NCBI GenBank assembly: GCA_020253445.1
Contig: JADCBP010000005.1
Span: 496,001 to 560,000, forward strand
Direction of reading: 5' to 3'
Origin: Methylobacterium sp.
Lineage (GTDB): Bacteria > Pseudomonadota > Alphaproteobacteria > Rhizobiales > Beijerinckiaceae
DNA: 64,000 nt
Below the pieces are notes generated by a model, which was not told where the DNA came from, ran no database searches, and worked only from the letters and a program-made list of their open reading frames with translations. A program made the translations under genes and the position numbers. The first letter of the stretch is position 1. Every line of letters begins with the position of its first letter. Below are positions 3,608-55,440 of the stretch, piece after piece.

Positions 3608-3871
3608 TCAGGCGTAACCACGCAAGCCGGTGGCTGTGGTGCCGGTGGCCTTCACCTGATGGATGCGCCAATCCAGAAAATCTCCGGCACTGACAGGCTC
3701 GACGCTTTCTTCGCCCGAGGCCCAGACGACGGCGATCGTGCCGGCCGCGCCCGTCACGCGCAACTGGCGCGTGACGGCCGGCAGCGGGTCTGTATCGCTT
3801 GGCGTGATGGCAAAGCCGCGCGTCAGGGGCCCCAGCGGCGACTGGGCATGGGTCTCGAAAACATCAGGCAT
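3608..3871 (-). CDS. Spike base protein, RCAP_rcc01079-like (gene transfer agent head-spike family)
   Basis: MPDVFETHAQSPLGPLTRGFAITPSDTDPLPAVTRQLRVTGAAGTIAVVWASGEESVEPVSAGDFLDWRIHQVKATGTTATGLRGYA; short protein with ITPSDT...VTR and QVKATGTTAT signatures. Confidence 0.72.
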   Translation of the reverse strand: MPDVFETHAQSPLGPLTRGFAITPSDTDPLPAVTRQLRVTGAAGTIAVVWASGEESVEPVSAGDFLDWRIHQVKATGTTATGLRGYA

Positions 3872-3948
3872 CTCTCGTCTCCTCGGGAAGTGTCGGGCGG
3901 GAGACGATAGGCCCGGTTTGGCAAGGCGGGGATAAACCGGCGCAGGCC

Positions 3949-4765: not shown

Positions 4766-6073
4766 TCAGCCCGCGCGTCCGATGCTCGCATAGGTGAGGC
4801 CGGCGGCCCTTGCCTCCTCGGGGCGGAAGATGTTGCGCAGGTCGATGAGGACGGGCGCGCCGAGGCGACGGGCGATGTCCTTGAGGTCGAGCGCGCGGAA
4901 CTCGTCCCATTCGGTGATGATGCAGGCCGCATCCGCGCCATCGAGGCAGGCCAGCGCGGATGGCGCGTAGTCGATGCCGGTCAGCACATGTCTTGCCTGC
5001 TCCACACCCTCCGGATCATAGGCCCGGATCCGCGCGCCGGCATCCTGCAATGCCTGGATCACCGCGATCGACGGCGCATCGCGCATGTCATCCGTGTTCG
5101 GCTTGAAGGTGAGGCCGAGGATCGCGATCGTCTTGCCGCGCACATTCCCATCCAGCGCCGTGATCACGCGGCGCGCCATCGCGCGCTTGCGCTTGTCATT
5201 CGCGGTTATGACCGATTCCACGATCGAGAGCGGAACCGCATGGTCATTCGCGGTGCGGATCAGCGCCAGCGTGTCCTTCGGGAAGCACGAGCCGCCATAG
5301 CCCGGGCCGGCATGCAGGAACTTCGAGCCGATGCGGTTGTCGAGGCCGATGCCGCGCGCCACCTCCTGCACATTGGCCCCCACGGCCTCGCAGAGATCGG
5401 CCATCTCGTTGATGAAGGTGATCTTGGTCGCCAGGAAGGCGTTCGCCGCATATTTGATCAGTTCCGAGGTGCGCCGCCCCGTGAAGACCAGCGGCGCCTG
5501 GTTGAGATAGAGCGGGCGATAGATCGCCGCGAGCACATCGCGCCCGCGCTGGTCCTCTGCCCCCACCACAATGCGGTCGGGCCGCTTGAAATCGTTGATC
5601 GCCGCGCCCTCGCGCAGGAATTCCGGGTTGGAGACCACCGAAACCTCGAGCTCCGGGCGCTCCTCCTTCAGGATGCGCTCCACCTCGTCGCCCGTGCCCA
5701 CCGGCACCGTCGACTTGGTGATGACGACGCAGGGGCCATCCAGCGCACGGGCGATCTCGCGGGTGGCATCGAACACATATTGCAGGTCGGCATGGCCATC
5801 CCCGCGCCGCGAGGGCGTGCCCACCGCGATGAAAACCGCCTCCACCCCCTTTACCGAGGCCTCGAGATCGGTCGAGAAGAACAGACGATTGTCACGGCGG
5901 TTCTTCGCCACGAGTTCGGCGAGGCCGGGCTCGAAGATCGGCATGATCCCCTGCTCAAGGCGCGCGATCTTGCCGGCATCCTTGTCGATGCAGATCACCG
6001 TGTGCCCGAAATCCGCAAGGCAGGCCCCCGAGACAAGGCCCACATATCCCGATCCAACCACCGCGATGCGCAT
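4766..6073 (-). CDS. ugd: UDP-glucose 6-dehydrogenase
   Basis: MRIAVVGSGYVGLVSGACLADFGHTVICIDKD...NAFLATKITFINEMADLCE...GSKFLHAGPGYGGSCFPKDT; ATG at 6073. Confidence 0.96.
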   Translation of the reverse strand: MRIAVVGSGYVGLVSGACLADFGHTVICIDKDAGKIARLEQGIMPIFEPGLAELVAKNRRDNRLFFSTDLEASVKGVEAVFIAVGTPSRRGDGHADLQYVFDATREIARALDGPCVVITKSTVPVGTGDEVERILKEERPELEVSVVSNPEFLREGAAINDFKRPDRIVVGAEDQRGRDVLAAIYRPLYLNQAPLVFTGRRTSELIKYAANAFLATKITFINEMADLCEAVGANVQEVARGIGLDNRIGSKFLHAGPGYGGSCFPKDTLALIRTANDHAVPLSIVESVITANDKRKRAMARRVITALDGNVRGKTIAILGLTFKPNTDDMRDAPSIAVIQALQDAGARIRAYDPEGVEQARHVLTGIDYAPSALACLDGADAACIITEWDEFRALDLKDIARRLGAPVLIDLRNIFRPEEARAAGLTYASIGRAG

Positions 6074-6173
6074 TACACATTCCTGTTCCGTCTTCCCGCG
6101 ACAAAGGCGCGGATTTGAAAAGATCCGGATCGGTCCGGAAACCAATCATCCGGACCAATGACCTTAGGCGGCG

Positions 6174-6452: not shown

Positions 6453-7232
6453 TCAATGCAATGTCACGGCGAAGGGCTTCACCTCCACCGCCACCCCGCC
6501 ATGCGCGGTGAGGAAAGAGCCCTGCGGCACGGCATTCCAATGCTCGCGGGTTTCATCCAGCGGCTCGGAGACGATCTGCACGCCATGGCCGTCCCGCCGC
6601 CAGTAGAGTGTGGGAGCCTTCTCGTCGCAGGCCCAGCGGAAGGCGTGCAGCGTCTCGCCATCCGTGAAGCAGGCGGCGAAGCGCAAGGCATCGTTGATGC
6701 CAGCCGCGCGCATCATCCCGCAGATCTCGGCCAACACGGAGCCGAAGGCCTCGGCCGGATCATCCTTCGCGCCGCGCCCGAGGGCCGCAAGGAAGATCGC
6801 TTCGCTGTCGGTCGTGCCGGAGCGATGCTGGTAGAATTCATCCGGGATCATCGCCTCGACCTGCCGGCGGATCCTGCCGAAGCCGCCGATCTGGCCATTA
6901 TGCATGAAAAGCGAGCTTCCATGCGCGAAGGGGTGGCAATTGGCGCGCGCAGTCGCCGTTCCCGTGGCGGCGCGGACATGGGCGAAGAAGAGCGGCGAGC
7001 GTACCTGCATGCAGATGGAAAGCAGGTTGTCATCCGACCAGGCCGGGCGCAGATCGCGGTAAAGGCCCGGCTCCGGGCGCTCCCCGTACCAGCCAAGGCC
7101 GAAGCCATCACCATTCGTGGCGGTCTTGCACTCGGTCGCCCGCATGCTCTGCTGGATCAGCGAATGGCAGGGTTTGCTGACCACGGAGTCGAGGAAAACA
7201 GGTTCACCCTGATAAGCGAGGAATCGGCACAT
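6453..7232 (-). CDS. Class II glutamine amidotransferase (YafJ-like)
   Basis: MCRFLAYQGEPVFLDSVVSKPCHSLIQQSMRATECKTATNGDGFGLGWYGERPEPGLYRD; N-terminal nucleophile Cys2; start 7232 (the 1194-aa ORF is an upstream read-through). Confidence 0.92.
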   Translation of the reverse strand: MCRFLAYQGEPVFLDSVVSKPCHSLIQQSMRATECKTATNGDGFGLGWYGERPEPGLYRDLRPAWSDDNLLSICMQVRSPLFFAHVRAATGTATARANCHPFAHGSSLFMHNGQIGGFGRIRRQVEAMIPDEFYQHRSGTTDSEAIFLAALGRGAKDDPAEAFGSVLAEICGMMRAAGINDALRFAACFTDGETLHAFRWACDEKAPTLYWRRDGHGVQIVSEPLDETREHWNAVPQGSFLTAHGGVAVEVKPFAVTLH

Positions 7233-33757: not shown

Positions 33758-34627
33758 ATGAATCGAATTCGCAAAGCGGTGATCCCGGTCGCGGGCCTTG
33801 GCACGCGTTTCCTGCCGGCGACGAAGGCCATGCCGAAGGAAATGCTCACGGTCGTGGATCGCCCCGTGATCCAGCACGTGGTGGATGAAGCGCGCAAGGC
33901 CGGCATTGAGCATGTGGTCTTCGTGACCGGGCGCAACAAGAACGTCATCGAGGATCATTTCGATCGTCAGTATGAATTGGAAGACACCCTGAAGAGCCGT
34001 GGAAAGGTGAAGGAACTGGCAGCTCTCGAGGCGGATACGCCCGGCGCGGGCGCGACGAGCTTCACCCGCCAGCAGGCGCCGCTCGGCCTCGGGCACGCGG
34101 TATGGTGCGCGCGCGACATCATCGGCAATGAGCCGTTCGCGCTGCTTCTCCCGGATATGCTGCATCTTGGCGAGACGGCCTTTCTCGGCGACATGATCGA
34201 GGCTTATGGCCAGACTGGAGGAAATCTCATCGGTGTCTACCCGGTTGCGGATGAAGAAACGCATCAATACGGCATCGTGGATGTGGCGGGTTCGGCGGAA
34301 AAGGTCGCGAAGATCGCCCGCATGGTCGAGAAGCCGGCCAGGGGAACGGCCCCTTCGAACCTCGCGATTTCCGGCCGCTACATTCTCCAGCCCACGATCT
34401 TCGAGCTTCTGTCCAGGCAGGAGCGCGGGGCGGGCGGCGAGATACAGCTCACGGATTCCATGCTGACGCTTGCGAAGACTGAGCCCTTCCATGCCGTGCG
34501 CTTCGATGGCCAGGTCTATGATACCGGCTCGAAGCTCGGCTTTCTGGCGGCCAACGTGGCCTATGCGCTGGCCAATCCGGAGCTGGGCAAGGATTTCCGT
34601 GGCATTCTCAAGTCATTGGCAGGTTGA
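33758..34627 (+). CDS. galU: UTP-glucose-1-phosphate uridylyltransferase
   Basis: [69 protein letters not shown]. Confidence 0.96.
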
Positions 34628-34733: not shown

Positions 34734-36260
34734 ATGACGTCCTTTCCGAAAGCCCGTGCGGACCTGAAGCCCAATACGGCTGCCTTCGAGCTCAACCCGC
34801 TCGTGAAGCCCACCGGCTTCCGCGAATATGATGCGCGCTGGTGGTTCGGGCATCCGGTTTCGGAAAAGGCGCCGGAACTGAACCTGATGGGCGTGCAGGC
34901 CCTTGGCCTCGGCATCGGTACTTATCTTGCCGAAACCGGCGTGAAGCAGCGCGTGGTCGTCGGCCATGATTTCCGCAGCTATTCGAACGCCATCAAGCTG
35001 GCGCTGGTCGCCGGCCTCATGGGTTCGGGCTGCGAGGTGGTGGATATCGGCCTCGCCATGTCGCCCATGGCCTATTTCGCGCAGTTCGCGCTCGATGTGC
35101 CGGCCGTGGCGATGGTCACCGCCTCGCATAACGACAATGGCTGGACCGGCGTGAAGATGGGCTCGAACCGCCCGGTGACCTTCGGCCCCACCGAGATCAA
35201 CCGCATCAGGGAAATCGTGCTCAACGCGCAATATCGCTACGGGCAGGGCAGCTATTCCTTCGTCGAGAACTTCTTCGAGAGCCACTATTTCAAGGAACTG
35301 GCCGACCGCCCGAAGCTCAAGCGCAAGCTCAAGGTCATCTGCGCCTGCGGCAACGGCACGGCCGGCGCCTTCGCCCCGCAGGTGCTCGAAGCGCTCGGCG
35401 CGGAGGTGATCCGCCTCGATTGCGAACTCGATCATACCTTTCCGCGCTACAACCCGAACCCCGAGGACATGGAAATGCTCCATGCCATGGCCCATGCCGT
35501 GAAGGAGCATGGCGCGGATGTGGCACTCGGCTTCGACGGCGATGGCGATCGCTGCGGCGTGGTGGATAACGAGGGCCATGAGATCTTCGCGGACAAGATC
35601 GGCGTGATGCTGGCGCGCGATCTCGCGGCGCTGAACCCCAATGCGCTTTTCGTGGCGGATGTGAAATCCACCGGCCTTTTCGCGACCGACCCGGAACTCC
35701 GGCGCCTCGGCGCCAAGACCGATTACTGGAAGACCGGCCATTCCTATATCAAGAAGCGCGTGGCCGAACTCGGTGCGCTCGCGGGCTTCGAGAAGAGCGG
35801 GCACTTCTTCTTCAACCCGCCGGTAGGGCGTGGCTATGATGACGGGCTCGTGACGGCGATTGCGGTGCTCGACATGCTCGATCGCAACCCCGGCAAGTCC
35901 ATGGCCGATCTTTATCGTGCGCTGCCGAAGACCTGGGCCACGCCCACCATGGCGCCGCATTGCGAGGACGAGGTGAAATATGGCATTGTCGAGAAGGTCG
36001 TGGCGCGTATTGAGGCGATGCAGAAGGCCGGTGCTTCCATCGCGGGCCATCCGATTCGTGATGTGGTGACCGTGAATGGTGTGCGCGTGACGGTTGATGA
36101 CGGCACCTGGGGCCTCATCCGTGCCTCGTCCAACAAGCCGGAACTGGTCGTCGTCATCGAGAGCCCGGTCTCCGAAGCCCGCATGCGCGAGATGTTCAAG
36201 GCGATGGATGCGATCCTGCGCGAGCACAGGGAAGTCGGTGCCTATAACCAGACGATCTGA
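34734..36260 (+). CDS. Phosphomannomutase/phosphoglucomutase
   Basis: 508 aa; VTASHNDNGWTGVKMG, DVALGFDGDGDRCGVVDNEG, ADVKSTGLFATDPEL. Confidence 0.94.
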   Translation: MTSFPKARADLKPNTAAFELNPLVKPTGFREYDARWWFGHPVSEKAPELNLMGVQALGLGIGTYLAETGVKQRVVVGHDFRSYSNAIKLALVAGLMGSGCEVVDIGLAMSPMAYFAQFALDVPAVAMVTASHNDNGWTGVKMGSNRPVTFGPTEINRIREIVLNAQYRYGQGSYSFVENFFESHYFKELADRPKLKRKLKVICACGNGTAGAFAPQVLEALGAEVIRLDCELDHTFPRYNPNPEDMEMLHAMAHAVKEHGADVALGFDGDGDRCGVVDNEGHEIFADKIGVMLARDLAALNPNALFVADVKSTGLFATDPELRRLGAKTDYWKTGHSYIKKRVAELGALAGFEKSGHFFFNPPVGRGYDDGLVTAIAVLDMLDRNPGKSMADLYRALPKTWATPTMAPHCEDEVKYGIVEKVVARIEAMQKAGASIAGHPIRDVVTVNGVRVTVDDGTWGLIRASSNKPELVVVIESPVSEARMREMFKAMDAILREHREVGAYNQTI

Positions 36261-36271
36261 CGGAGCTTCTC

Positions 36272-37696
36272 ATGTCGCAGCCGATCATCCGGCCCGTCAT
36301 CCTCTGCGGCGGCTCCGGCACGCGGCTCTGGCCGCTCTCGCGCGAGGCCTTTCCGAAGCAGTTCGCGCCCATCATCGGCAAGCGCTCCACCTTTCAGGAA
36401 ACGCTATTGCGCGTGAAGGACCCGGCTGTTTTTGGAAAGCCGCTCGTCATCACCAACCGGTCGCATCGCTTCATGGTCGAGCGCCAGCTGGCCGAGATCG
36501 GCATCGCGGCGGATATCCTGCTTGAGCCGATGGCGCGGGATTCGGGCCCGGCCGTGCTGGCTGCGGCGCTCTACCTTCATCGCCAAACCCCCGATGCGCT
36601 TGCCCTGATGCTGGCGGCGGATCACCTCGTGCTGAAGCCCAAAGCCTTTGTCGAAGCGGTGGTTGCCGGTCGGGCCGTGGCCGCTGCCGGCGGCATCGTC
36701 ACCTTCGGCATCCTCCCCACCTCGCCCGCCACCGGCTATGGCTATATCGATCCGGGCGAGGAAAGCGGCGCGGGCCTGCGCGCCGTGCGGCGTTTCGTCG
36801 AGAAGCCGGATGCCCGGCGCGCGCTGGAATATGTCGCCTCGGGTTATCTTTGGAACTCGGGCAACTTCCTCTTCGCTCCTTCCACCGTGATCGGCGAATA
36901 CCGTGACAGCCAGCCCGAATGCGTGAACCATGTCGAGGCGGCGCTGGCTGAGGCCAGCGTCGATCTCGAGGTTCCCACGCTTAACGAGGAGCACTTCGCC
37001 AAGGCGCGCAAGATCGCCTTCGATATCGCGGTGATGGAAAAGACCCGCCATGCCCATGTCGTTGCCGGAGATTTCGGCTGGTCCGATATCGGGGATTGGA
37101 ACGCGCTCTGGGAGGTTTCCGAAAAGGATAATGCCGGCAATGCAGGGCAGGGGCCTGTGCTGATGGTGGAGACCGAGGGCAGCTATGTCTCGACCGAGGA
37201 TCAGCTTGTCGCGACCCTCGGCGTGAAGGATCTCGTGGTCGTCGCCACACGGGATGCCGTTCTCGTTGCGGATCGGCACAAGGTCGGGCAGGTGAAGCAG
37301 CTGGTCGAGCGCCTGAAGCAGGATGGCCGGCCGGAAGCCTCCCACCACGCGCGCGTCTTCCGCCCCTGGGGCTGGTACCAGACGCTCGTCCTGCAGGATC
37401 GCTCGCAGGTGAAGCGCATTGTCGTCTATCCGGGCGGAAAACTGTCACTGCAGAAGCATTTCCATCGCTCCGAGCATTGGGTCGTCGTGCGCGGTACGGC
37501 GCGCGTCACCATTGGCGACAAGACAGAAGATCTCATCGAGAACCAGTCCGCCTATATCCCCAGTGGGGTCGTGCATCGGCTCGAGAATCCCGGCCGGATC
37601 GATGTTGAGATCATCGAGGTGCAGACTGGCAGCTATCTCGGCGAGGATGACATCGTGCGGCTTCAGGATATCTACAGCCGCGCGGGCACCGCCTGA
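36272..37696 (+). CDS. manC: Mannose-1-phosphate guanylyltransferase / mannose-6-phosphate isomerase
   Basis: RPVILCGGSGTRLWPLSREAFPKQFAPIIG...FVEKPD...FRPWGWYQTLVLQDRSQVKRIVVYPGGKLSLQKHFHRSEHWVVV. Confidence 0.96.
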   Translation: MSQPIIRPVILCGGSGTRLWPLSREAFPKQFAPIIGKRSTFQETLLRVKDPAVFGKPLVITNRSHRFMVERQLAEIGIAADILLEPMARDSGPAVLAAALYLHRQTPDALALMLAADHLVLKPKAFVEAVVAGRAVAAAGGIVTFGILPTSPATGYGYIDPGEESGAGLRAVRRFVEKPDARRALEYVASGYLWNSGNFLFAPSTVIGEYRDSQPECVNHVEAALAEASVDLEVPTLNEEHFAKARKIAFDIAVMEKTRHAHVVAGDFGWSDIGDWNALWEVSEKDNAGNAGQGPVLMVETEGSYVSTEDQLVATLGVKDLVVVATRDAVLVADRHKVGQVKQLVERLKQDGRPEASHHARVFRPWGWYQTLVLQDRSQVKRIVVYPGGKLSLQKHFHRSEHWVVVRGTARVTIGDKTEDLIENQSAYIPSGVVHRLENPGRIDVEIIEVQTGSYLGEDDIVRLQDIYSRAGTA

Positions 37697-37877: not shown

Positions 37878-39032
37878 TCAGGCATCCCGCGCGATTGCAA
37901 GCCGCTCCTTGAGCGCGCGCAATTCGTTGCGCGTCTCCTTCAATGCGGCCCAGAGCACGGGGATCAGCTGGTCCGGCCGGAGCCATTGGCGGCTCTCGTG
38001 ATCAGCGGAATCCTCGAGGCCCCAGACGCCAAAATCGAGCCCGGCGCCATCAAGCGCCGCCTTGATGTCCTGCGCGAGGAAACCGGCCTGAAGCCGTGAA
38101 TCGCCCTCCGCATCCTGCTTCCAGCGGAACAGCACGGGTTCGACCGCGTCGAGCAGGGCGAGGGCAGAGGCCTTGCGCAAGGGCGATTCCACGATTTTCT
38201 CTCGCGCATCCGAGGTCTGGATGGTGCCGGTCGCCGACCAGATTGCCTGGAACCGGGCACCCGCGCCCCCAAGCCGGGAGACATTGTCAGCCAGAGGCAT
38301 GAAATGCCCCGCACTGTCGAGCGCCACGCGCTCGGTTCCGCCGGTGCCGAAACGCAGGCTTCCCGTTCCATTGGTCATCAGCCGGAGGTTGCCGGTTGTC
38401 ACGCTCTGGATGGTCACCTGCGTCGGTGAAACGCTCATGGCATCATGCCAGGCCGTGCCATCGGCGCTCACCTTCACCTGGAAGGCATCGCTGCCCGTGA
38501 GGCCGAATTCCGCGCGGCCTGAATAGCCGGTCTGGAACACGAGGCTCGCGGTATTGGCCGGCGCCGTCTTGTTGACGACCATCCGGTGATTGCCACCCTC
38601 CTGGTCGAAACGGCTCACCGCCGAGTTCACGGCGAAGCGGGTTGTCGCATCCGCCATCGTCCCGATTCCGAGCCGCGTCATGTTCTGCAGTTCGGTCACC
38701 GCCGAACGCCATGTGCCGCCTTTGAAGATCTGGACCGCATCCACCGCATCGACCCAGGCAAGCCAGCCCTCGCGCGGCGTGAAGAACTGCCAGCCGCCAT
38801 CGAACCAGCCGGCAATCTGCCCTGCCTTCGAGGTCCATGCGCCGCCGGCCCCCGCGGGCACCGCATAGCAATCTCCCTCCGTCGGGGTAGGGGGCGGAGT
38901 GGTGGTCGCCGTCGATTTCAGCACGAGCTGGCATAGGGCATCGAGTGCTCGCAGCGCCTCGTTCAACGTCACGTGCTTCTGCGCCTGGCCGGCAGCGAGA
39001 TAGGGCAATTGAAGGCGGGGCGTGAGGCTCAT
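37878..39032 (-). CDS. GTA/phage-type tail spike adhesin: DUF2793 N-terminal domain and C-terminal peptidase S74 intramolecular chaperone
   Basis: MSLTPRLQLPYLAAGQAQKHVTLNEALRALDALCQLVLKSTATTTPPPTPTEGDCYAVPAGAGGAWTSKAGQIAGWFDGGWQFFTPREGWLAWV (DUF2793); IQTSDAREKIVESPLRKASALALLDAVEPVLFRWK...GFLAQDIKAAL...IPVLWAALKETRNELRALKERL (S74). Confidence 0.88.
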   Translation of the reverse strand: MSLTPRLQLPYLAAGQAQKHVTLNEALRALDALCQLVLKSTATTTPPPTPTEGDCYAVPAGAGGAWTSKAGQIAGWFDGGWQFFTPREGWLAWVDAVDAVQIFKGGTWRSAVTELQNMTRLGIGTMADATTRFAVNSAVSRFDQEGGNHRMVVNKTAPANTASLVFQTGYSGRAEFGLTGSDAFQVKVSADGTAWHDAMSVSPTQVTIQSVTTGNLRLMTNGTGSLRFGTGGTERVALDSAGHFMPLADNVSRLGGAGARFQAIWSATGTIQTSDAREKIVESPLRKASALALLDAVEPVLFRWKQDAEGDSRLQAGFLAQDIKAALDGAGLDFGVWGLEDSADHESRQWLRPDQLIPVLWAALKETRNELRALKERLAIARDA

Positions 39033-39226
39033 CAGGGGCTCCTCCGGGGAAAATGCGATGGAGCCAAGCTAGGCGCTCCCCGAAAGGGGGGGATAAGTGC
39101 CGAACCCACGCAGACCGGCGCGATTGACTTTACAGACTCCTTGCTGGCAGGCTCTGGTCATTCAAGGCTTGAACCGCTATCGCACCCGTCGAGCAGGAAC
39201 AGCCCCGGCGAAGGCGATCGATCGGA

Positions 39227-40294
39227 ATGACCAAAACAGCACTCATCACCGGCATCACGGGCCAGGACGGCGCCTATCTCGCTGAATTGCTGCTTGGCAA
39301 GGGCTACCGGGTGCATGGCGTGAAGCGTCGCTCCTCGTCCTTCAATACCGGGCGGATTGATCATCTCTATCAGGATCCGCATGAGCGCGACATTCGCCTG
39401 AAGCTGCATTACGGCGACATGACCGATGCGACGAACCTCATCCGCATCGTGCAGGAGACGCAGCCCGACGAGATCTACAATCTCGCGGCGCAATCCCATG
39501 TGCAGGTGAGCTTCGAAACCGCCGAATACACAGCCAATGCCGATGCCATCGGCACGCTTCGCCTGCTGGAAGCGATCCGCATCCTGAAGCTCGAGGGCAA
39601 GACACGCTTCTACCAGGCCTCGACCTCGGAACTCTATGGCAAGGCCCAGGAAGTGCCGCAGAGCGAGAAGACACCGTTCTATCCTCGCAGCCCTTACGCC
39701 GCCGCCAAACTCTATGCCTACTGGATTACCGTGAATTATCGCGAGGCCTATGGCATCCATGCCTCGAACGGAATTCTCTTCAACCATGAGAGCCCTTTGC
39801 GCGGCGAAACCTTCGTCACGCGGAAGATCACCCGCGCCGTGGCTTCCATCCATCACGGCCTGCAGGATGTGCTCTATCTCGGCAATCTCGACGCCATGCG
39901 CGACTGGGGCCATGCGCGCGATTATGTCGAGGGCATGTGGCGCATTCTCCAGCAGCCGCAGGGCGATGATTACGTGCTTGCGACCGGTGAAGCCCACACC
40001 GTGCGCGAATTCGTGGAGCGCGCCTTCGCGGAAACCGGCGTCGCCATCACGTGGGAAGGCTCGGGCGTGACGGAGATCGGTCGCGATGCGAAAACCGGCG
40101 CGGTGCGCGTTGAGATCGACCCGCGCTATTTCCGCCCGACGGAGGTGGATCTCCTGCTGGGCGATCCCTCGAAGGCCCATCATGTGCTGGGATGGAAGCA
40201 CAAGACCACCTTCCCCGACCTGGTGAAGGACATGATGCGTTCCGATCTCGATGTGGTTCTCCGCGAGCACAACCGGCAGGATCGCGATGCCTGA
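39227..40294 (+). CDS. gmd: GDP-mannose 4,6-dehydratase
   Basis: [53 protein letters not shown]...[48 protein letters not shown]. Confidence 0.98.
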
Positions 40295-41255
40295 GGCGCT
40301 GTTCCCGCTGGCTGGAAAAAGCGTCTTTGTCGCGGGCCATCGCGGCATGGTGGGGCAGGCGCTGGTGCGCGCGCTGAAGGCACGCGGCATCGAGCCGATT
40401 GTCGCGAACCGCGCCGAACTCGATCTTGAAAATCAGGCTGAGACCGAACGCTGGTTCGCAAGAAACCGCCCGCAGGTTGTTCTGCTCGCGGCGGCCCATG
40501 TCGGGGGCATTCTGGCGAATAACAGCTTTCCGCGCGATTTCCTTTACAGGAACGTGATGATCGCCGCGAATGTCATTGAGGCCGCGCATCGCCATGGCGT
40601 GGAGAAACTCGTCAATCTCGGCTCTTCCTGCATCTACCCGAAATTCGCGGAACAGCCCATCCGCGAGGAAAGCCTGCTCACCGGCAGCCTCGAACCCACC
40701 AACGAGTGGTATGCGATTGCAAAGATCACCGCGATCAAGCTGGCGCAGAGCTATCGCCGGCAATTCGGCGCGGACATGATCTCGCTGATGCCCTCGAACC
40801 TCTATGGTCCCGGCGACAATTACCACCCCGAGAACAGCCATGTGCTGCCCGCGCTCATCCGCCGTTTCCACGAGGCGAAGGAGGCGGGCGCGAAATCCGT
40901 CACGCTCTGGGGCAGCGGCACGCCGCGCCGGGAATTCCTGTTCGTGGATGATCTCGCGGAGGGCACCCTCTTCGCGACCGAACATTATTCCGGCGAGGGG
41001 CATCTCAATGTCGGCACCGGCACGGATGTGACCATCACGGAACTGGCGGGCCTCATCGCGACGGTCGTGGGCTTCGAAGGCGCGGTCGACCATGACCAAT
41101 CGAAACCGGACGGCACCCCGCGCAAGCTGATGGATGTCTCGAAGCTCGCCGAACTCGGCTGGCACGCGAAAACCTCTCTCCAGAAGGGTATTCGGCTGGC
41201 CTATGCCGATTTCCTCGCGGGCGGCGGGCGCAACCGACAAGGGGCAGGACCCTAA
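40287..41255 (+). CDS. fcl: GDP-L-fucose synthase
   Basis: [30 protein letters not shown]...[69 protein letters not shown]. Confidence 0.97.
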
Positions 41256-46627: not shown

Positions 46628-47395
46628 TCATTCCTTCTCGGGCAGATCACGCAGGAAACCGAGCCCCAGGAAATAGATGCCGCCGGCTAGCAACACCGCT
46701 TTGGTGGCGAGGCCGGGGGCAAGCCGATCCACGATGATCGACCACACCGCCGCCACGCTCCATGTCGCGAGCGCGGCCATGGTCATGGGGCGCCAGCGCT
46801 TCACGCGCACGGGGTGCACGAACACCACGGGCAGGAACATCATCGCCGTGAGAATGATCACGATGACCAGCGCCAGCCAGGCCGGCGGCAGAAACACCAC
46901 GATATAGAAAACCACCACGTTCCACACGGCCGGAAAGCCGAGAAACCACCAATCATGCGTCTTCATCTTGGTGTCGGCGAAATAGAGCGCCGAGCCGATG
47001 GTGATGATCAGGCCCATCGCGAGGCCATAGGGCTGCGGCATGATTTCCGGGCGCAGCAGGATCGCCGCCGGCACGAAGACGTAAGTGATGAAATCCACCA
47101 CGAGATCGAGCACCGCGCCATCATAGCGCGAGGCGGTCTCGATCACGTTCAGTCGCCGCGCCATCGGGCCATCTGCGGCATCGACGATCAGCGCCACGGC
47201 CAGCCAGCCGAAACATGCCACGATATGCCCGGAAATCGCGGCCTCCAGCGCGAGAAAACCAAGCGCCGCTCCGAGTGCCGTGAAAACGTGCACGCCATAG
47301 GCCATGACATGGACCGGACCTTTCTTCCCGGCCTTGTCCCGCTCTCTTGTCGCCACGCCCCCAACTCCGTCACTGAAAATCTCGTATAATCGCAT
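46628..47395 (-). CDS. pcs: Phosphatidylcholine synthase
   Basis: MAYGVHVFTALGAALGFLALEAAISGHIVACFGWLAVALIVDAADGPMARRLNVIETASRYDGAVLDLVVDFITYVFVPA; CDP-alcohol-phosphatidyltransferase-like motif. Confidence 0.93.
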   Translation of the reverse strand: MRLYEIFSDGVGGVATRERDKAGKKGPVHVMAYGVHVFTALGAALGFLALEAAISGHIVACFGWLAVALIVDAADGPMARRLNVIETASRYDGAVLDLVVDFITYVFVPAAILLRPEIMPQPYGLAMGLIITIGSALYFADTKMKTHDWWFLGFPAVWNVVVFYIVVFLPPAWLALVIVIILTAMMFLPVVFVHPVRVKRWRPMTMAALATWSVAAVWSIIVDRLAPGLATKAVLLAGGIYFLGLGFLRDLPEKE

Positions 47396-47430
47396 AACAC
47401 CCTTGTCACCACCCGCCAATCCTGGGGGCT

Positions 47431-48156
47431 TCAGGTTCCGAACCCGCCCCCCGGCGAAAAATGCGAGACGATCTGATGGCGCGCGGCCGGATAATGCAGC
47501 GTCACGGCGGTGACGATCACGCCGCCTTGCCATGTGCGCCGGTCAATCACGAGGCAGGCCGCCCCCTTGGGCATGGCGAGCTGCCGCGCCAGCGAGGGTG
47601 AGGCGATATCCGCCCGGATGATGTGCTCGGCATCGGTCCAGGGCACTTCGTTGAGGAGCCAGGTGCCGGGCGGGGTCTCGGAGAAATCGGCGCTTGCCGC
47701 ATCCGGCACGATCGCGAGGTTCATCAGCCGGTATTCGACCGCGTAAGGAAGGTCATCGGCGTAATGCACGAGCTGGAGCGCGAGGATTTCCGTCACTGGT
47801 TCGCCCAGCCGTGCGAGGTCGGCGGCATCGGGTGCGCGCCTTGCCCGGGAGAGTATCTCGCAGCGATAGGCGCGACCGGAGGCAGCGATCTCCGCCTTGA
47901 GATCGTGGATCTTCAGCACGGTCTGCGCCGTGCGCGGCATTGCCACCTGCGAACCCGCGCGCCGGCGGCGCTGGATCAGCCCCTCGCTCGCCAGCGCCGA
48001 GAGCGCCTTGCTCACGGTCATGCGCGAGCAACCATAGAGTTCCTTGAGTTCATGCTCGGAGGGGATGGCATCGCCCGGCCGCAATTCGCCCGAAGCGATG
48101 CGATTCTGGATATCGCGCCGGATCTCCAGGTAGCGGGGGAGGGCGATGTCGTCCAA
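47431..48156 (-). CDS. hutC: GntR family histidine utilization repressor
   Basis: 241 aa; YLEIRRDIQNRIASGELRPGDAIPSEHELKELYGCSRMTVSKALSALASEGLIQRRRRAGSQVAMP; within hut cluster. Confidence 0.93.
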   Translation of the reverse strand: MDDIALPRYLEIRRDIQNRIASGELRPGDAIPSEHELKELYGCSRMTVSKALSALASEGLIQRRRRAGSQVAMPRTAQTVLKIHDLKAEIAASGRAYRCEILSRARRAPDAADLARLGEPVTEILALQLVHYADDLPYAVEYRLMNLAIVPDAASADFSETPPGTWLLNEVPWTDAEHIIRADIASPSLARQLAMPKGAACLVIDRRTWQGGVIVTAVTLHYPAARHQIVSHFSPGGGFGT

Positions 48157-48178
48157 TGGTCCGCTCCGATGATGCGCG

Positions 48179-49531
48179 TCAGATCATGCCGGCCAGACGG
48201 TGGATGACCTTCCGGTAGGCCTCCGCGACAGCCTCATGCCTGTGATGACGACCCCTGTCCACGACCGGTTTTCCAGCCGCATAAACGCGGTCGATCAGCG
48301 CATGGCCGCCCGCGAAAATGTAGGAATCGAGCGCGAAATCGCCATCGCGGCCCGCGAGATCGGGGGCCTCCGGGTCGAGCGTCACGAAGTCGGCCCGCGC
48401 TCCGGGCGTGATCCCCATCGGCCGCCCGAGCGCCTGCGCGCCGCCTGCGAGCGCGCGATCATGCAGGAGGCGGCCGGTGGAAAGCCCCGGCAGGCTCATC
48501 GCATTGCGCACCCGGCGTGCAAGACGCTGGCTGTATTCCAGCATGCGCAACTCGCCGGCCGCGCTGATCTCGACATTCGAATCCGTGCCGACGCCGAAAC
48601 GCCCGCCGCTCGCGAGGAAATCCATGCCGGGAAAGGTTCCATCACCGAGATTGGCCTCGGTGATGGGGCAGAGACCCGCCACCGCGCCGGAGCGGGCGAG
48701 GGCCTGCATTTCGCCCTCGGTGAGATGCGTCGCATGGATCAGGCACCAGCGCTCATCCACGGGCTGGTTGGCGAGAAGCCATTCCACCGGGCGTTTCCCG
48801 CTCCAGGCGAGGCAATCCTGCACTTCCTTCATCTGCTCGGCGACATGGATATGCGCCGGCCCCGTTGGAAAGGCAGCGACCAGGGCGTCCAGCTCATCCG
48901 GCATCGCGGCGCGCAGGGAATGGGGTGCGAAGCCGAGCACCGCCTGCGGCAGGCCGGAAATCGCCCGCCCGCTCGCCTCCATGAGGCGCGCGAAACCCCT
49001 GAGGTCCGAGATGAAGCGCCGCTGGCCGGAATTCGGAGCCTGCCCGCCGAATCCGCCATGGGCATAGAAGACCGGCAGAAGCGTGAGCGCGATGCCCGTT
49101 TCAGACGCCGCTGCGGCGATCCGCTCGGCATTTTCCGCAGGGTTGGCATAGGGCGTCCCATCCGGCTGGTGATGCAGGTAGTGGAACTCGCCCACCGCCG
49201 TGAACCCGCGCTCCAGCATCTCCATGAAAGCGAAGGCGGCGATGGTCTCGACATCCTCGGCCGTGATTGCGCCGAGGAAGCGATACATCACCTCGCGCCA
49301 GGTCCAGAAGCTGTCATCCGATTGGCCGCGCCGCTCCGCGAGCCCCGCCATGCCGCGCTGGAAGCTGTGCGAATGCAGGCTTGCAAGGCCGGGCAGGGCG
49401 ATCCGCCCATCGGTTGCAGCGGCCTCCAGTCCGGTCTCGACCCGCGTGATGAGGCCCGCCTCGTGATGAACAGCCACCCCGTTCGCCCAACCCGTCGGCA
49501 GCAGCGCCTGGCCGAAATGGAGCACCGGCAT
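48179..49531 (-). CDS. hutF: Formimidoylglutamate deiminase
   Basis: MPVLHFGQALLPTGWANGVAVHHEAGLITRVETG...LASLHSHSFQRGMAGLAERRGQSDDSFWTWREVMYRF...VGEFHYLHHQPDG. Confidence 0.95.
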   Translation of the reverse strand: MPVLHFGQALLPTGWANGVAVHHEAGLITRVETGLEAAATDGRIALPGLASLHSHSFQRGMAGLAERRGQSDDSFWTWREVMYRFLGAITAEDVETIAAFAFMEMLERGFTAVGEFHYLHHQPDGTPYANPAENAERIAAAASETGIALTLLPVFYAHGGFGGQAPNSGQRRFISDLRGFARLMEASGRAISGLPQAVLGFAPHSLRAAMPDELDALVAAFPTGPAHIHVAEQMKEVQDCLAWSGKRPVEWLLANQPVDERWCLIHATHLTEGEMQALARSGAVAGLCPITEANLGDGTFPGMDFLASGGRFGVGTDSNVEISAAGELRMLEYSQRLARRVRNAMSLPGLSTGRLLHDRALAGGAQALGRPMGITPGARADFVTLDPEAPDLAGRDGDFALDSYIFAGGHALIDRVYAAGKPVVDRGRHHRHEAVAEAYRKVIHRLAGMI

Positions 49532-49582
49532 TCGTTCAATCTCCGCCTCGCAAAATCCGCTGGACTCTAGCGCGAGCGCCTC

Positions 49583-49597
49583 ATTATGTATAGACAA
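49583..49597 (+). promoter_or_regulatory. Candidate HutC operator ATTATGTATAGACAA
   Basis: In the hutF/hutI divergent gap; 14/15 identical to the reverse complement of 58746-58760. Confidence 0.65.
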
Positions 49598-49611
49598 AAG
49601 AGGGGGATTTC

Positions 49612-50814
49612 GTGACAGCGGATCCTGTGTTTCGCAACGCCCGCCTGGTGACCATGGCTGGGGAGGGCATGGGGATCATCGAACGCGGCGCGGTTGTCGT
49701 GGCCGGCGGGCGGATCGTCTTCGCCGGGGCGGAAAACGACCTGCCGACCGGCCTTGCGGCAAATGAAATCATTGACTGCGAAGGCCGCATTGTCACGCCC
49801 GGCCTCATCGATTGCCACACGCATCTCGTCTTCGGGGGAAATCGCGCCCGCGAATTCGAGATGCGGCTCGATGGTGCGGGCTACGAGGAAATCGCCCGCG
49901 CGGGGGGCGGCATTCTCTCCACGGTGCGCGCCACGCGCGCCGCGAGCGAGGATGAGCTCGTCGCCTCTGCGCTTCCCCGCCTCGATGCCCTCATGAGCGA
50001 GGGTGTGACCACGGTCGAGATCAAGTCGGGCTATGGGCTGACGGTCGCGGATGAAGCGAAAACCCTGCGCGCGGCGCGCCGCCTCGGCACGCTGCGGTCT
50101 GTTTCGGTGTTGACGACGGCGCTTGGCGCGCATGCCGTCCCGCCGGAATTCGCGGGCCGCTCCGGCGATTACATCGATCACGTCATCGCCGAGCAATTGC
50201 CGGCGCTCGTCGCGGAAAACCTCGCGGATGCGGTCGATGCCTTCTCCGAGGGCATCGCCTTCTCGCCCGAGGAGGTGGATCGCCTCTTCACCGCCGCGCG
50301 CCGCATGGGCCTGCCAGTGAAGCTCCATGCCGATCAGCTCTCGAACCTGCATGGGGCGGCACTCGCGGCAAGGCACGGCGCGCTTTCGGCGGATCACCTC
50401 GAATACACCGATGCCGAGGGTGCGGCCGCGATGGCCAGGGCCGGAACGGTCGCCGTGCTGCTGCCCGGGGCGTTCTATTTCCTGCGCGAGAAGCAATTGC
50501 CGCCCATCTCCGCCTTCCGTGCGGCGGGGACGCGCATGGCGCTCGCGACCGATTGCAATCCCGGTTCCTCGCCGCTCACCTCGCCGCTGCTGACCATGAA
50601 CATGGCGGCGACGCTCTTCCGCATGACCGTCAGGGAGTGCCTCGCCGGCTTCACGCGCGAGGCTGCGCGCGCTTTGGGGAAACTCGGGGAGGTCGGCACG
50701 CTGGAGGCCGGCAAATGGGCCGATCTTGCGATCTGGTCGGTCGAGAGCCCGGCGGAACTGGTCTATCGCATGGGGTTCAACCCGCTCCATCAACGCATCC
50801 GGAGGGGCCAATGA
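49612..50814 (+). CDS. hutI: Imidazolonepropionase
   Basis: GTG start; [44 protein letters not shown]...KSGYGL...LHADQLSN...ATDCNPGSS. Confidence 0.97.
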
Positions 50815-52391
50815 GCGTCATGCTCACGCCTGGAAAAGCAGGATATCCGGCGTTTCGAGCCATTCTGGATGGTGCGGCGGCGCGACTTGATCCTGCAGCC
50901 TTGCCGCGCATCGAAGCCGCCGCGGCGATTGTCGCGAAGGCCGCAGCGAGTGATGCGGCGGTCTACGGCATCAATACCGGCTTCGGCAAACTCGCCTCGA
51001 AGCGCATTCCTGCGCAGGATACGGCAACGCTGCAACGCAATCTCATCCTGTCGCATTGCTGCGGCATGGGAGAGCCCACGCCAGCGCCGGTCGTGCGCCT
51101 CATGATGGCGCTGAAACTCCTCAGCCTCGGGCGTGGTGCCTCGGGTGTCCGTCCCCTGGTCATCCGCCAGATCGAGGCGTTTCTGGAGGCTGGAATCGTG
51201 CCGCTGGTGCCCGCTCAGGGCTCCGTGGGTGCCTCGGGCGATCTCGCTCCGCTGGCGCATTTCACCGCCGCCATGATGGGCGAGGGCGAGGCCTTTCTGG
51301 GCGACAAGCGGATGCCCGCCGCCGAAGCCCTGGCGAAGACGGGCCTCACTCCGCTGGTTCTCGGCCCGAAGGAAGGGCTCGCGCTGATCAACGGCACACA
51401 GTTTTCCACCGCCCATGCCATCGCCGCGGCCCTGCAAGCGGAACGGCTTGCCCTTTCGGCGCTGGTCACCGGCGCGCTCTCGACCGATGCCGCCATGGCT
51501 TCCACCACGCCGTTCCGGCCGGAGATTCATGCCCTGCGCGGCCTTCCGGGCCAGATCGAAGCGGCGGAAACGCTGATGCTGCTGCTGGAGGGCAGCGAAA
51601 TCCGCGAGGCGCATCTTGAAGGCGACGAGCGCGTGCAGGACCCCTATTGCCTGCGCTGCCAGCCGCAGGTGACGGGCGCTGCGCTGGGCCTCATCCGCGA
51701 GGCCATGCGCACGCTGGTTGTCGAAGCCAATGCGGCGACCGACAACCCCCTCGTGCTGGTGGAAACGGGAGAGATCGTTTCCGGCGGCAATTTTCATGCC
51801 GAGCCCGTGGCCTTCGCCGCCGATCAGATCGCGCTGGCGATTTCCGAAATCGGTGCGATCTCCGAGCGCCGCATCGCGACCCTCGTGGACCCGGCGCTGA
51901 ATTTCGGCCTGCCGCCGTTCCTCACGCCGGCACCGGGACTGAACTCCGGCTTCATGATTGCGGAGGTCACGGCGGCGGCGATCTTCGCCGAGAACAAGCA
52001 GCGCGCAACGCCGGCTTCGATCGATTCCACGCCCACCTCCGCCAATCAGGAGGACCATGTCTCCATGGCCGCGCATGGGGCGCGTCGGCTCCATGAGATG
52101 AACGCCAATCTCGCGCGGATTCTGGGCATCGAAATGCTCGTTGCCGTGCAGGGCATCGACCTGAGGAAACGGGGCGCGGGGCTGGAGGGCCTGAAGGGCG
52201 GTGCTGCCTCCGCGCATGTGTTGCGCACGGGTCCGCGACTGGAGCGCGTGGTCGAGGAGCTCCGTGCCCATGTGCCCGCGCTGGCCGAGGACCGCTTCAT
52301 GGCCGATGACCTTGCTCTCTCCGCCCATCTGATCGCCTGTGGCGCGACACTTCATGCCGCCGGGCTTGCGACGATCGAGAGCGAAGGCTGA
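50811..52391 (+). CDS. hutH: Histidine ammonia-lyase
   Basis: [19 protein letters not shown]...[15 protein letters not shown]...[26 protein letters not shown] (ASG MIO motif); ATGA overlap with hutI. Confidence 0.97.
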
Positions 52392-52394
52392 GCC

Positions 52395-53231
52395 ATGTTC
52401 ACGCTGCCGGATCACTGGCTGACGGTGCGACAGGGAAACGCGCCGCTTGTCATCAGCCTGCCGCATACCGGCCGCGACCTGCCGCCGGAACTCGCGGCCC
52501 GCGTCGTCTCGCCCTGGCTCGCGCGGAAGGATTGCGACTGGTGGATCGATGATCTCTACGCCTTCGCGGCCGGGCTCGATGCCACGATCATTCATACTTC
52601 CCTTTCACGCACGCTGATCGACGTGAACCGCGACCCCTCCGGCGTCTCCCTCTATCCCGGACAGGCGACAACCGAGCTCTGCCCGTCGACCACCTTCGAT
52701 GGCGAGCCGCTCTACAAACCGGGCCAGGCGCCGGATGCGGCGGAAATCGAAACGCGCCGCAAGCTCGCCTTCGATCCCTATCACGCGGCGCTTGCGGGCG
52801 AGCTTCAGCGCCTGCGCGCGCAGCACGCCAGCGTCGTGCTCTATGATTGCCACTCGATCCGCTCGGTGATCCCCCGGCTGTTCGAAGGGGAATTGCCACA
52901 GTTCAACATCGGCACGCATTCGGGTGCCGCCTGCGATCCGCGCCTTGCGGGCGAGATCGAACGACTCTGCGATCAGAGCGGCAGGAGCCGCGTCACCAAC
53001 GGACGGTTCAAGGGTGGCTATATCACGCGCAATTATGGCAAGCCCGAAGCCGGTATCCATGCCGTGCAGATGGAACTCGCCTGCCGTGGCTACATGCGCG
53101 AACCGATGCCCGAGGTGAGCGAGGCCAACTGGCCCGGCGCCTATGATCCCGCTTATGCCGCGCCGATCCGCGCGACGCTTTCCTCGATCCTCCAAGCCTG
53201 CCTTGCCTTCGCGAAAGGGGCCTCGACATGA
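52395..53231 (+). CDS. hutG: N-formylglutamate deformylase
   Basis: [37 protein letters not shown]...[37 protein letters not shown]. Confidence 0.95.
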
Positions 53232-54892
53232 CCCGTCTCGACAATTCCCGCGTGATCCGCGCGCCGCGCGGCCTCGATCTCTCGGCCAAGAGCTGGCTCA
53301 CCGAAGCGCCCATGCGCATGCTCATGAACAATCTCGACCCCGATGTGGCCGAGAAGCCCGGCGAACTCGTGGTCTATGGCGGCATCGGCCGTGCCGCGCG
53401 CGACTGGGACAGCTTCGACAGGATCGTCGCCGCGCTGAAGAAGCTCGAGGCGGATGAGACGCTGCTCGTGCAATCGGGCAAGCCGGTGGGCGTGTTCCGC
53501 ACGCAGCCGGACGCGCCGCGCGTGCTCATCGCCAATTCGAACCTCGTGCCGCGCTGGGCGACCTGGGAGCATTTCAACGCGCTCGATCGGAAGGGCCTCA
53601 TGATGTATGGCCAGATGACCGCCGGCTCGTGGATCTATATCGGCACGCAGGGCATCGTTCAGGGCACCTACGAGACCTTCGTGGAAATGGGCCGCCAGCA
53701 TTATGGCGGCGATCTCTCGGGCCGTTGGATCCTCACCGCCGGCCTCGGCGGCATGGGCGGCGCGCAGCCCCTCGCGGCCACGATGGCCGGGGCTTCCTGC
53801 CTTGCGGTGGAATGCCGCCCCTCCTCCATCGAATTCCGCCTGCGCACCGGCTATCTCGACGTGAAGGCCGACACGCTGGATGATGCGCTGGAGATCATCC
53901 GCCGGGCTTGCGCGGAAAAGAAGGCGATCTCGGTTGGTCTCCTCGGCAATGCGGCGGATCTCTTCCCCGAACTCGTCAGACGCGGCATCCGCCCGGATTG
54001 CGTGACCGACCAGACCTCCGCGCATGATCCCGTGCACGGCTATCTGCCGCAGGGCTGGACGCTCGCGGATTGGGAAGCCAGGCAGGCGAGTGATCCCGGG
54101 GGCGTGACGGCCGCAGCGAAGAAGAGCATGGCGGCGCATGTCCGCGCCATGCTCGATTTCCACAGGATGGGTGTCCCCACGGTCGATTACGGCAACAACA
54201 TCCGCCAGATGGCGCTCGAAGAGGGTGTCGCGGATGCCTTCGATTTTCCGGGCTTCGTGCCGGCCTATATTCGCCCGCTCTTCTGCAAGGGGATTGGCCC
54301 CTTCCGCTGGTGCGCGCTCTCCGGCGACCCGGAAGACATCTATCGCACCGACGAGAAGGTGAAGGAGCTGCTGCCCGACAACAAGCATCTCCACAACTGG
54401 CTCGACATGGCGAGGAAGCGCATCAAGTTCCAGGGATTGCCGGCGCGCATCTGCTGGGTGGGGCTGGGCGATCGTCACCGGCTCGGCCTCGCCTTCAACG
54501 AGATGGTTGCGAAGGGCGAACTCAAGGCACCGATCGTGATCGGGCGCGATCACCTCGATTCCGGTTCGGTCGCCTCGCCCAATCGCGAGACGGAAGCGAT
54601 GCGCGACGGCTCGGATGCGGTGTCCGATTGGCCGCTCCTCAACGCGCTGCTCAATTGCGCAAGTGGTGCCACCTGGGTGTCGCTGCACCATGGCGGCGGC
54701 GTCGGCATGGGGTTTTCGCAGCATTCGGGCATGGTGATCTGCTGCGACGGCACCGAGGATGCCGCGCGCCGCATCGCCCGCGTGCTCTGGAACGACCCCG
54801 CGACGGGCGTGATGCGCCATGCCGATGCCGGTTATGACACCGCGCTTCAATGCGCCCGCGAGCATCAATTGAACCTGCCGGGTATCCTTTGA
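53228..54892 (+). CDS. hutU: Urocanate hydratase
   Basis: 554 aa [60 protein letters not shown]...[24 protein letters not shown]. Confidence 0.98.
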
Positions 54893-55440
54893 TGCGCTTG
54901 CTCAAGGCTTCGGAACGCGCGGCTCGCCCCTGGAAGAACGGGGGAGGGGTGACATTCGATGTCGCGAGCTTTCCGGAAGGTTCGAGCCTCGATACCTTCG
55001 CGTGGCGCATCTCCATCGCGGAGGTGGCCGGCGATGGCCCGTTCTCGCGCTTCGAGGGAATCGACCGCTCGACGGCCATTCTCGCGGGGGAGGGCTTCCG
55101 CCTCACCTTCGGCGATGGCCGCGTGGAAGACCTGCGTCTCGATGCGCCCGCGCTCGCCTATCCCGGCGATGTCGATGCGCAATGCACCCTTCTCGGCGGG
55201 CCTGTGCGCGATCTCAACGTGATGACCCGGCGCGGGGTCTATCGCCATCGCCTCAGGCGGGTGAGCGGGGATTGCGTGGTGGAAGGCGAGGCGGTGCTCA
55301 TCTGCCCGCGCGGTGCGGCGCGGATCACCACCGCAGGGCGCGCGACCATCACCCTGCATGATGGCGACGCGCTGGTTCTCTCAAGCCAGCGGTTCCACGG
55401 CGATGAACCGGTCTGGCTCGTGGAGCTGATACCGGTTTAG
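54892..55440 (+). CDS. hutD: HutD family protein
   Basis: [71 protein letters not shown]. Confidence 0.93.
   Translation: MRLLKASERAARPWKNGGGVTFDVASFPEGSSLDTFAWRISIAEVAGDGPFSRFEGIDRSTAILAGEGFRLTFGDGRVEDLRLDAPALAYPGDVDAQCTLLGGPVRDLNVMTRRGVYRHRLRRVSGDCVVEGEAVLICPRGAARITTAGRATITLHDGDALVLSSQRFHGDEPVWLVELIPV

Follow-up and report, generated by a model that had tools for sequence, protein, structure and literature searches.

The tail fibre of the Rhodobacter capsulatus GTA (RcGTA) is encoded by rcc00171 and has DUF2793 as its hallmark, a domain that co-evolves with the GTA structural genes (PMC8265664, PMC10883770). A homologous fibre is carried by phage R4C (PMC10276861). The RcGTA head spike, Rcc01079/Rcc01080, is a different adhesin, and homology between rcc00171 and rcc01080 is undetectable by BLASTp (PMC10218006). 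The N-terminal peptide of Rcc01080-type proteins is formed by an Ile/Leu-Gly repeat (PMC7296036). In R. capsulatus, the head-spike genes adjoin the CPS genes rcc01081-01086, with which they are described as co-regulated, and binding of the RcGTA fibre to cells increases with capsule (PMC10218006). Which cells receive GTA DNA is an open question; producers die, and they gain only if relatives take the DNA up.

The gene described here lies in a stretch of 64,000 nucleotides (the window) from a genome of the genus Rhabdaerophilum, whose assembly comprises 3,275,025 bases (3.28 Mb) in 18 contigs. Very probably, the product of this gene is the receptor-binding tail fibre of a resident RcGTA-type GTA, and the gene has been relocated to a surface-polysaccharide/capsule locus. 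The fibre protein itself adds a new member to a known family. In the literature consulted, we did not find described a tail fibre relocated to a glycan locus, a GTA fibre that ends in an S74 domain, or a promoter-like element common to the fibre and the spike base.

Identity of the fibre gene

The fibre gene, its domains and the adjacent sugar genes are as follows.

37878..39032, minus strand: gene assigned as a GTA tail fibre of the rcc00171 type (384 aa; the only DUF2793 gene in the genome)
38706..38963, minus strand: DUF2793 domain, residues 24-109, the baseplate-proximal part (PF10983, E 1.3e-31)
37881..38213, minus strand: C-terminal S74 intramolecular chaperone, residues 274-384 (PF13884; fold match 3gw6; SDxRxK motif)
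33758..34627, plus strand: sugar-phosphate nucleotidyltransferase, galU/rfbA-like (PF00483)
34734..36260, plus strand: phosphomannomutase/phosphoglucomutase (PF02878-PF02880)
36272..37696, plus strand: manC, mannose-1-P guanylyltransferase/mannose-6-P isomerase, convergent with the fibre gene (PF00483 + PF01050)
39227..40294, plus strand: gmd, GDP-mannose 4,6-dehydratase, divergent from the fibre gene (PF16363, E 3.4e-159)
40251..41255, plus strand: fcl, GDP-fucose synthase-like epimerase (PF01370)

The domain matches and the gene map confirm that, as an earlier note on this DNA had claimed, a minus-strand gene with DUF2793 and a C-terminal S74 domain is located between manC and gmd/fcl. The intergenic region that separates it from gmd is 194 bp long, and the true fcl start is probably located after the gmd stop codon. 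Transporter genes flank the glycan block on both sides. The only Poly_export gene of this genome is 79 kb from the fibre gene, and no Capsule_synth gene was found in the genome. To the right of the glycan block (46628-55440), the window carries ordinary histidine-degradation genes for a HutF-like deiminase, an amidohydrolase and urocanase.

The fibre ORF has a coding-like codon-phase G+C profile, and its dN/dS is approximately 0.17 in comparison with three full-length orthologues. The fibre is therefore under purifying selection, and a homologue is present in 15 of the 17 genus members. The best match in a PDB sequence search is to residues 4-132 of 8gtc_S (E 7.8e-16), a fibre of the R4C phage baseplate. 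Chain S of 8GTC is labelled 'Ribonuclease III' in its file and is a component of the R4C baseplate-tail complex. Matches among PHROG families are to phage tail-fibre or unannotated families.

The earlier note had likened the protein to Rcc01080, which is wrong, since DUF2793 belongs to the tail fibre rcc00171 (PMC8265664, PMC10883770). The RcGTA head-spike chains gave no match to the fibre in the PDB search, and the N-terminus of the protein, MSLTPRLQLPYL, is not the Ile/Leu-Gly repeat of PMC7296036. Domain content, the PDB search, the N-terminus and the literature thus rule out a head spike fibre of the rcc01080 type. In other words, the proposed 'GTA spike adhesin' is upheld as a GTA receptor-binding protein and given up as a head spike, the gene being of the tail-fibre (rcc00171) type. 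An autotransporter was also considered and rejected, as the supporting genes are absent around the fibre gene.

Confidence in a structure model of the fibre (pLDDT 76, pTM 0.39) is limited to its N-terminal half and S74 domain. The top fold match for the N-terminal part is 8gtc_T, with 40% identity over 93 columns, and the end of the model matches the 3GW6 intramolecular chaperone (E 3.3e-4). Residues 211-272 fall below pLDDT 50; this is the stretch just before the S74 module, where a lectin-like sugar-binding foot was sought. The Peptidase_S74 profile PF13884 covers residues 274-331 with E 1.9e-9 and 38.1 bits, relative to a curated cut-off of 22, and the sequence SDAREK, which represents the SDxRxK motif, starts at S274. 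Domains of the S74 family remove themselves by cleavage once folding is done. From this family behaviour, the fibre is predicted to self-cleave at the SDxRxK motif to yield a mature fibre of 273 aa, a length close to the 276 aa of relatives without S74.

The resident GTA and a promoter-like element

The adhesin reading of the earlier note depended on a core GTA cluster elsewhere in the genome, and a search recovered one. An RcGTA-type head-tail cluster is located on the same contig, approximately 90-100 kb from the fibre gene, and includes matches for the terminase (a weak match), portal, prohead protease, capsid, connector, Rcc01695-type distal tail protein, hub and megatron. For the megatron equivalog NF048004, the score is 1377.7 bits (cut-off 800). 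The fibre gene maps to C14:533881-535032, and the TIM domain of the megatron to C14:632868-633776. The bacterium can probably make a GTA particle.

Across 75 genomes of the family, fibre and megatron occur together in 59, the fibre alone in two, the megatron alone in seven and neither in seven (p 5e-5, with kinship ignored). No fibre was found in one genus member with a GTA (G069), whose assembly is fragmented. Elsewhere in the family, the fibre gene of most genera starts directly downstream of the megatron gene. The fibre tree groups the window's fibre with these megatron-adjacent fibres, and copies from GTA-like prophages branch elsewhere.

The combination of DUF2793 and S74 is common among phage tail fibres, and in two genus members, G060 and G063, there are additional GTA-like prophage clusters that have their own megatron and DUF2793 genes (L144, L145 and L146). 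Both observations would fit a gene that an unrelated prophage left behind or carried as cargo. This origin is highly improbable, however, because there is no other phage gene around the fibre gene, the main fibre clade does not include the prophage fibres, the gene is conserved under purifying selection across the genus, and its promoter-like element is also found upstream of a GTA head-spike gene. The features concerned are listed below.

39066..39096, minus strand: promoter-like element TTATCCCC-N17-TAGCTT, 64 bp before the fibre ATG
3904..3935, minus strand: the other genomic copy of this element, 64 bp before the ATG of the spike-base gene
3611..3871, minus strand: GTA head-spike base protein of the Rcc01079 family, 87 aa (NF048002, 82.9 bits, cut-off 28)
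4766..6145, minus strand: nucleotide-sugar dehydrogenase, UDP-glucose 6-dehydrogenase-like (TIGR03026, 446 bits, cut-off 190)

The spike-base protein also matches the structure of Rcc01079 (PDB 6tb9, E 2.9e-8). No head fibre gene was recognised beside its gene, which is located 0.9 kb from the nucleotide-sugar dehydrogenase gene.

The exact pattern TTATCCCC-N17-TAnnnT has only these two sites in the whole genome of the window, and a reversed-pattern control has none. Within the genus, the pattern is located 61-96 bp before the fibre starts, in its strict form for 11 of the 15 and for 14 of the 15 if degenerate copies are included. The 17 genus genomes together hold 18 exact sites, compared to six in the reversed control; eight precede fibres, four precede spike bases, two precede members of a family of about 160 aa, and four are elsewhere. 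Because the pattern was derived from the fibre promoters, the fibre count is descriptive and the spike-base count is the real test. An independent search for spike-base genes found the element (T[TA]ATCCCC) at 59-64 bp in seven of eight genus genes, against a background of 0.7% per 150 bp. Judged from this sequence pattern, the element common to fibre and spike base argues for co-regulation with the GTA.

Two homologous proteins of 158-166 aa with a KYSPxQPRDxxGRWAPW motif and no NCBIfam match are encoded directly behind the element in two genus members (L182:971-1468 and L191:1000-1473, both minus strand), and their gene is a candidate for a further GTA accessory gene. The element also offers a sequence handle for finding more such genes in the genus. 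The full element was not found at the promoter of the GTA main cluster, where an ATCCCCG box is present upstream in about half of the genomes in a different layout. The box of the element looks like a DnaA box, and a DnaA-like DNA-binding domain is part of the GTA activator GafA (PMC6363796). In Caulobacter, the fibre homologue is induced by GafYZ (PMC9632790). It is a guess that GafA or GafY binds the element; the GafA/GafY literature consulted offered no usable consensus for comparison.

Surface-polysaccharide genes around the fibre

A Poly_export gene is present at a distance of <=10 kb for 11 of the 15 Rhabdaerophilum fibre genes, compared to 0.17 expected by random placement, and for none of the 15 megatron genes used as a control; these genomes are related, and their lineages are not independent events. 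The placement of the fibre among glycan genes is not due to chance, and the adhesin inside a nucleotide-sugar locus pointed out in the earlier note is one example of a linkage kept in the genus. The common order, on one strand, is fibre, P450, lipid-A-acyltransferase-like gene, Poly_export/SLBB and SDR, with genes for Capsule_synth, a GT4 glycosyltransferase and ManC nearby. The conserved run from P450 to SDR and its neighbours can be seen at L138, L139, L140 and L159. One genome (G066) has the order manC - fibre - P450 - acyltransferase - Poly_export - gmd - fcl; it bridges the genus-wide locus and the window's own order, manC - fibre - gmd - fcl. The latter arrangement is also present in G068, at 93-98%.

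Since the fibre gene heads this tight same-strand run of P450, acyltransferase, Poly_export and SDR genes in most genus members, the protein might now act in the capsule or at the cell surface, having lost its GTA role. We find this hard to credit. Inspection by eye revealed no obvious export signal at the N-terminus of the fibre, the promoter-like element is common to the spike base, and a relative (G074) has retained the gene run and lost the fibre along with the GTA. Every other genus member has a megatron match; this relative has neither that nor the fibre. Its capsule locus is otherwise collinear at 84-90%, with a value of 85-90% for G072; the alignment with G072 runs to positions 6607/9139 (G074/G072) and resumes at 7150/10304, such that the fibre-bearing segment of approximately 1.16 kb is replaced in G074 by 0.54 kb of unalignable sequence. 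In this one case, the glycan locus can do without the fibre, which was lost together with the GTA.

Returning to a relocated GTA tail fibre, the relocated genes fall into a single clade with support 90/83, in which other genera are also represented. Within this clade, a sugar transferase gene adjoins the fibre gene in G059 and a nucleotide-sugar dehydrogenase gene does so in G052. A genome nested in the genus clade (G002; assembly 79% complete, 5% contamination) has Poly_export 0.5 kb from the fibre gene. On a different branch of the fibre tree, an S74-ended fibre of another genus (G022, L147) adjoins PMM and manC genes, and this is possibly an independent case of the linkage. Caulobacterales (Brevundimonas and others) have fibre genes in conserved neighbourhoods, which are not counted here as cases of the linkage. 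One Rhabdaerophilum genome with a GTA (G064) has its fibre gene away from glycan genes and without the promoter-like element; this genome, G069 and the main-cluster promoter count against the relocated-tail-fibre reading.

These data bear on whether the location matters for function. The gene might be a GTA tail fibre whose place in the glycan locus is functionless, having arisen by one chance relocation into a tolerant neighbourhood and been kept by descent. This may well be so, although we stop a little short of calling it probable. According to the fibre tree, one relocation can account for the whole genus, and the fibre in G064 is elsewhere. Moreover, fibre type does not track either gmd/fcl or P450/Poly_export among the few species available, each represented by one strain: a near-identical S74-type fibre is found beside gmd/fcl in G000 and G068 and beside a P450/Poly_export/KpsCS locus in G067 and G062, and G066 has gmd/fcl yet carries a different, short fibre type. 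No diversifying selection was evident in the distal part of the fibre, where dN/dS is 0.25 in the closest pair against 0.09-0.16 for N-terminal parts, and wider pairs have no excess. Against a functionless placement, the fibre gene stays with sugar genes even as the locus is rearranged in orientation, neighbours and fibre ends, unlinked fibres elsewhere also adjoin sugar genes (G059, G052 and, with PMM/manC, G022), and R. capsulatus offers a parallel with a different GTA adhesin, its head spike being located by CPS genes (PMC10218006).

The same three points, namely linkage kept despite rearrangement, sugar genes by the fibre in other genera and the R. capsulatus parallel, favour the ligand/receptor cassette suggested in the earlier note, which we consider plausible by analogy. 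In such a cassette, the neighbouring sugar genes might make the fibre receptor and the linkage might keep the two matched. A fuller version, in which the fibre is expressed in the polysaccharide locus from a GTA-specific promoter common to the head-spike gene, and fibre and receptor glycan are inherited or exchanged as a unit to give kin-selective transfer, is tentative and on the doubtful side. Speaking against the cassette are a fibre type that does not follow gmd/fcl, the separate location of the G064 fibre, and neutral descent after a single relocation, which accounts for most of what is seen. The occurrence of nearly the same fibre at both locus types, together with G066, also speaks against a strict fucose ligand.

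For a relocated tail fibre, we envisage that the gene departed from the GTA cluster in an ancestor and arrived in the surface-polysaccharide/capsule locus in Rhabdaerophilum, staying among the GDP-mannose/GDP-fucose genes in the window's species. Its transcription probably starts from a promoter class of its own, common to the unlinked head-spike base gene, so that the fibre would be made with the GTA particles. By homology, the DUF2793 part would dock on the baseplate/megatron, and the S74 domain, as in its family, would aid trimer folding before being cut off. Experiments with RcGTA suggest that the mature fibre would bind a cell-surface glycan of recipients. Finally, with the genes linked, alleles of fibre and glycan might be passed on jointly.

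Comparison with known systems

If the cassette does exist, it would, along with the linkage of head spike and capsule in R. capsulatus, represent a recurrent GTA design principle. A promoter-marked fibre in a glycan locus and a natural relative that lacks both GTA and fibre would permit a comparative and genetic test of kin-selective transfer beyond R. capsulatus and Caulobacter.

Among known proteins, endosialidase-type tail spikes (PDB 3GW6) have the same C-terminal chaperone with SDxRxK, whereas the fibre described here lacks their endosialidase catalytic domain. The baseplate fibre of Roseophage vB_DshS-R4C (8GTC chain S/T) is homologous in its N-terminal part but comes from a true phage, and the matched chain is without an S74 domain. 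The RcGTA tail fibre Rcc00171 is alike in its DUF2793 N-terminus, its length (371 versus 384 aa), the separation of its gene from the head-tail cluster and its co-occurrence with the megatron. However, Rcc00171 has a pyocin-like lectin foot where the Rhabdaerophilum protein has a C-terminal S74 chaperone module, and only the latter is described here from a glycan locus with a promoter-like element common to the spike base. The arrangement also resembles that of the RcGTA head spikes by the CPS genes, in that a GTA adhesin gene adjoins surface-polysaccharide genes. In the window, by contrast, this adhesin belongs to the tail rather than the head, and the spike-base gene occupies a separate locus 35 kb away, by a nucleotide-sugar dehydrogenase gene.
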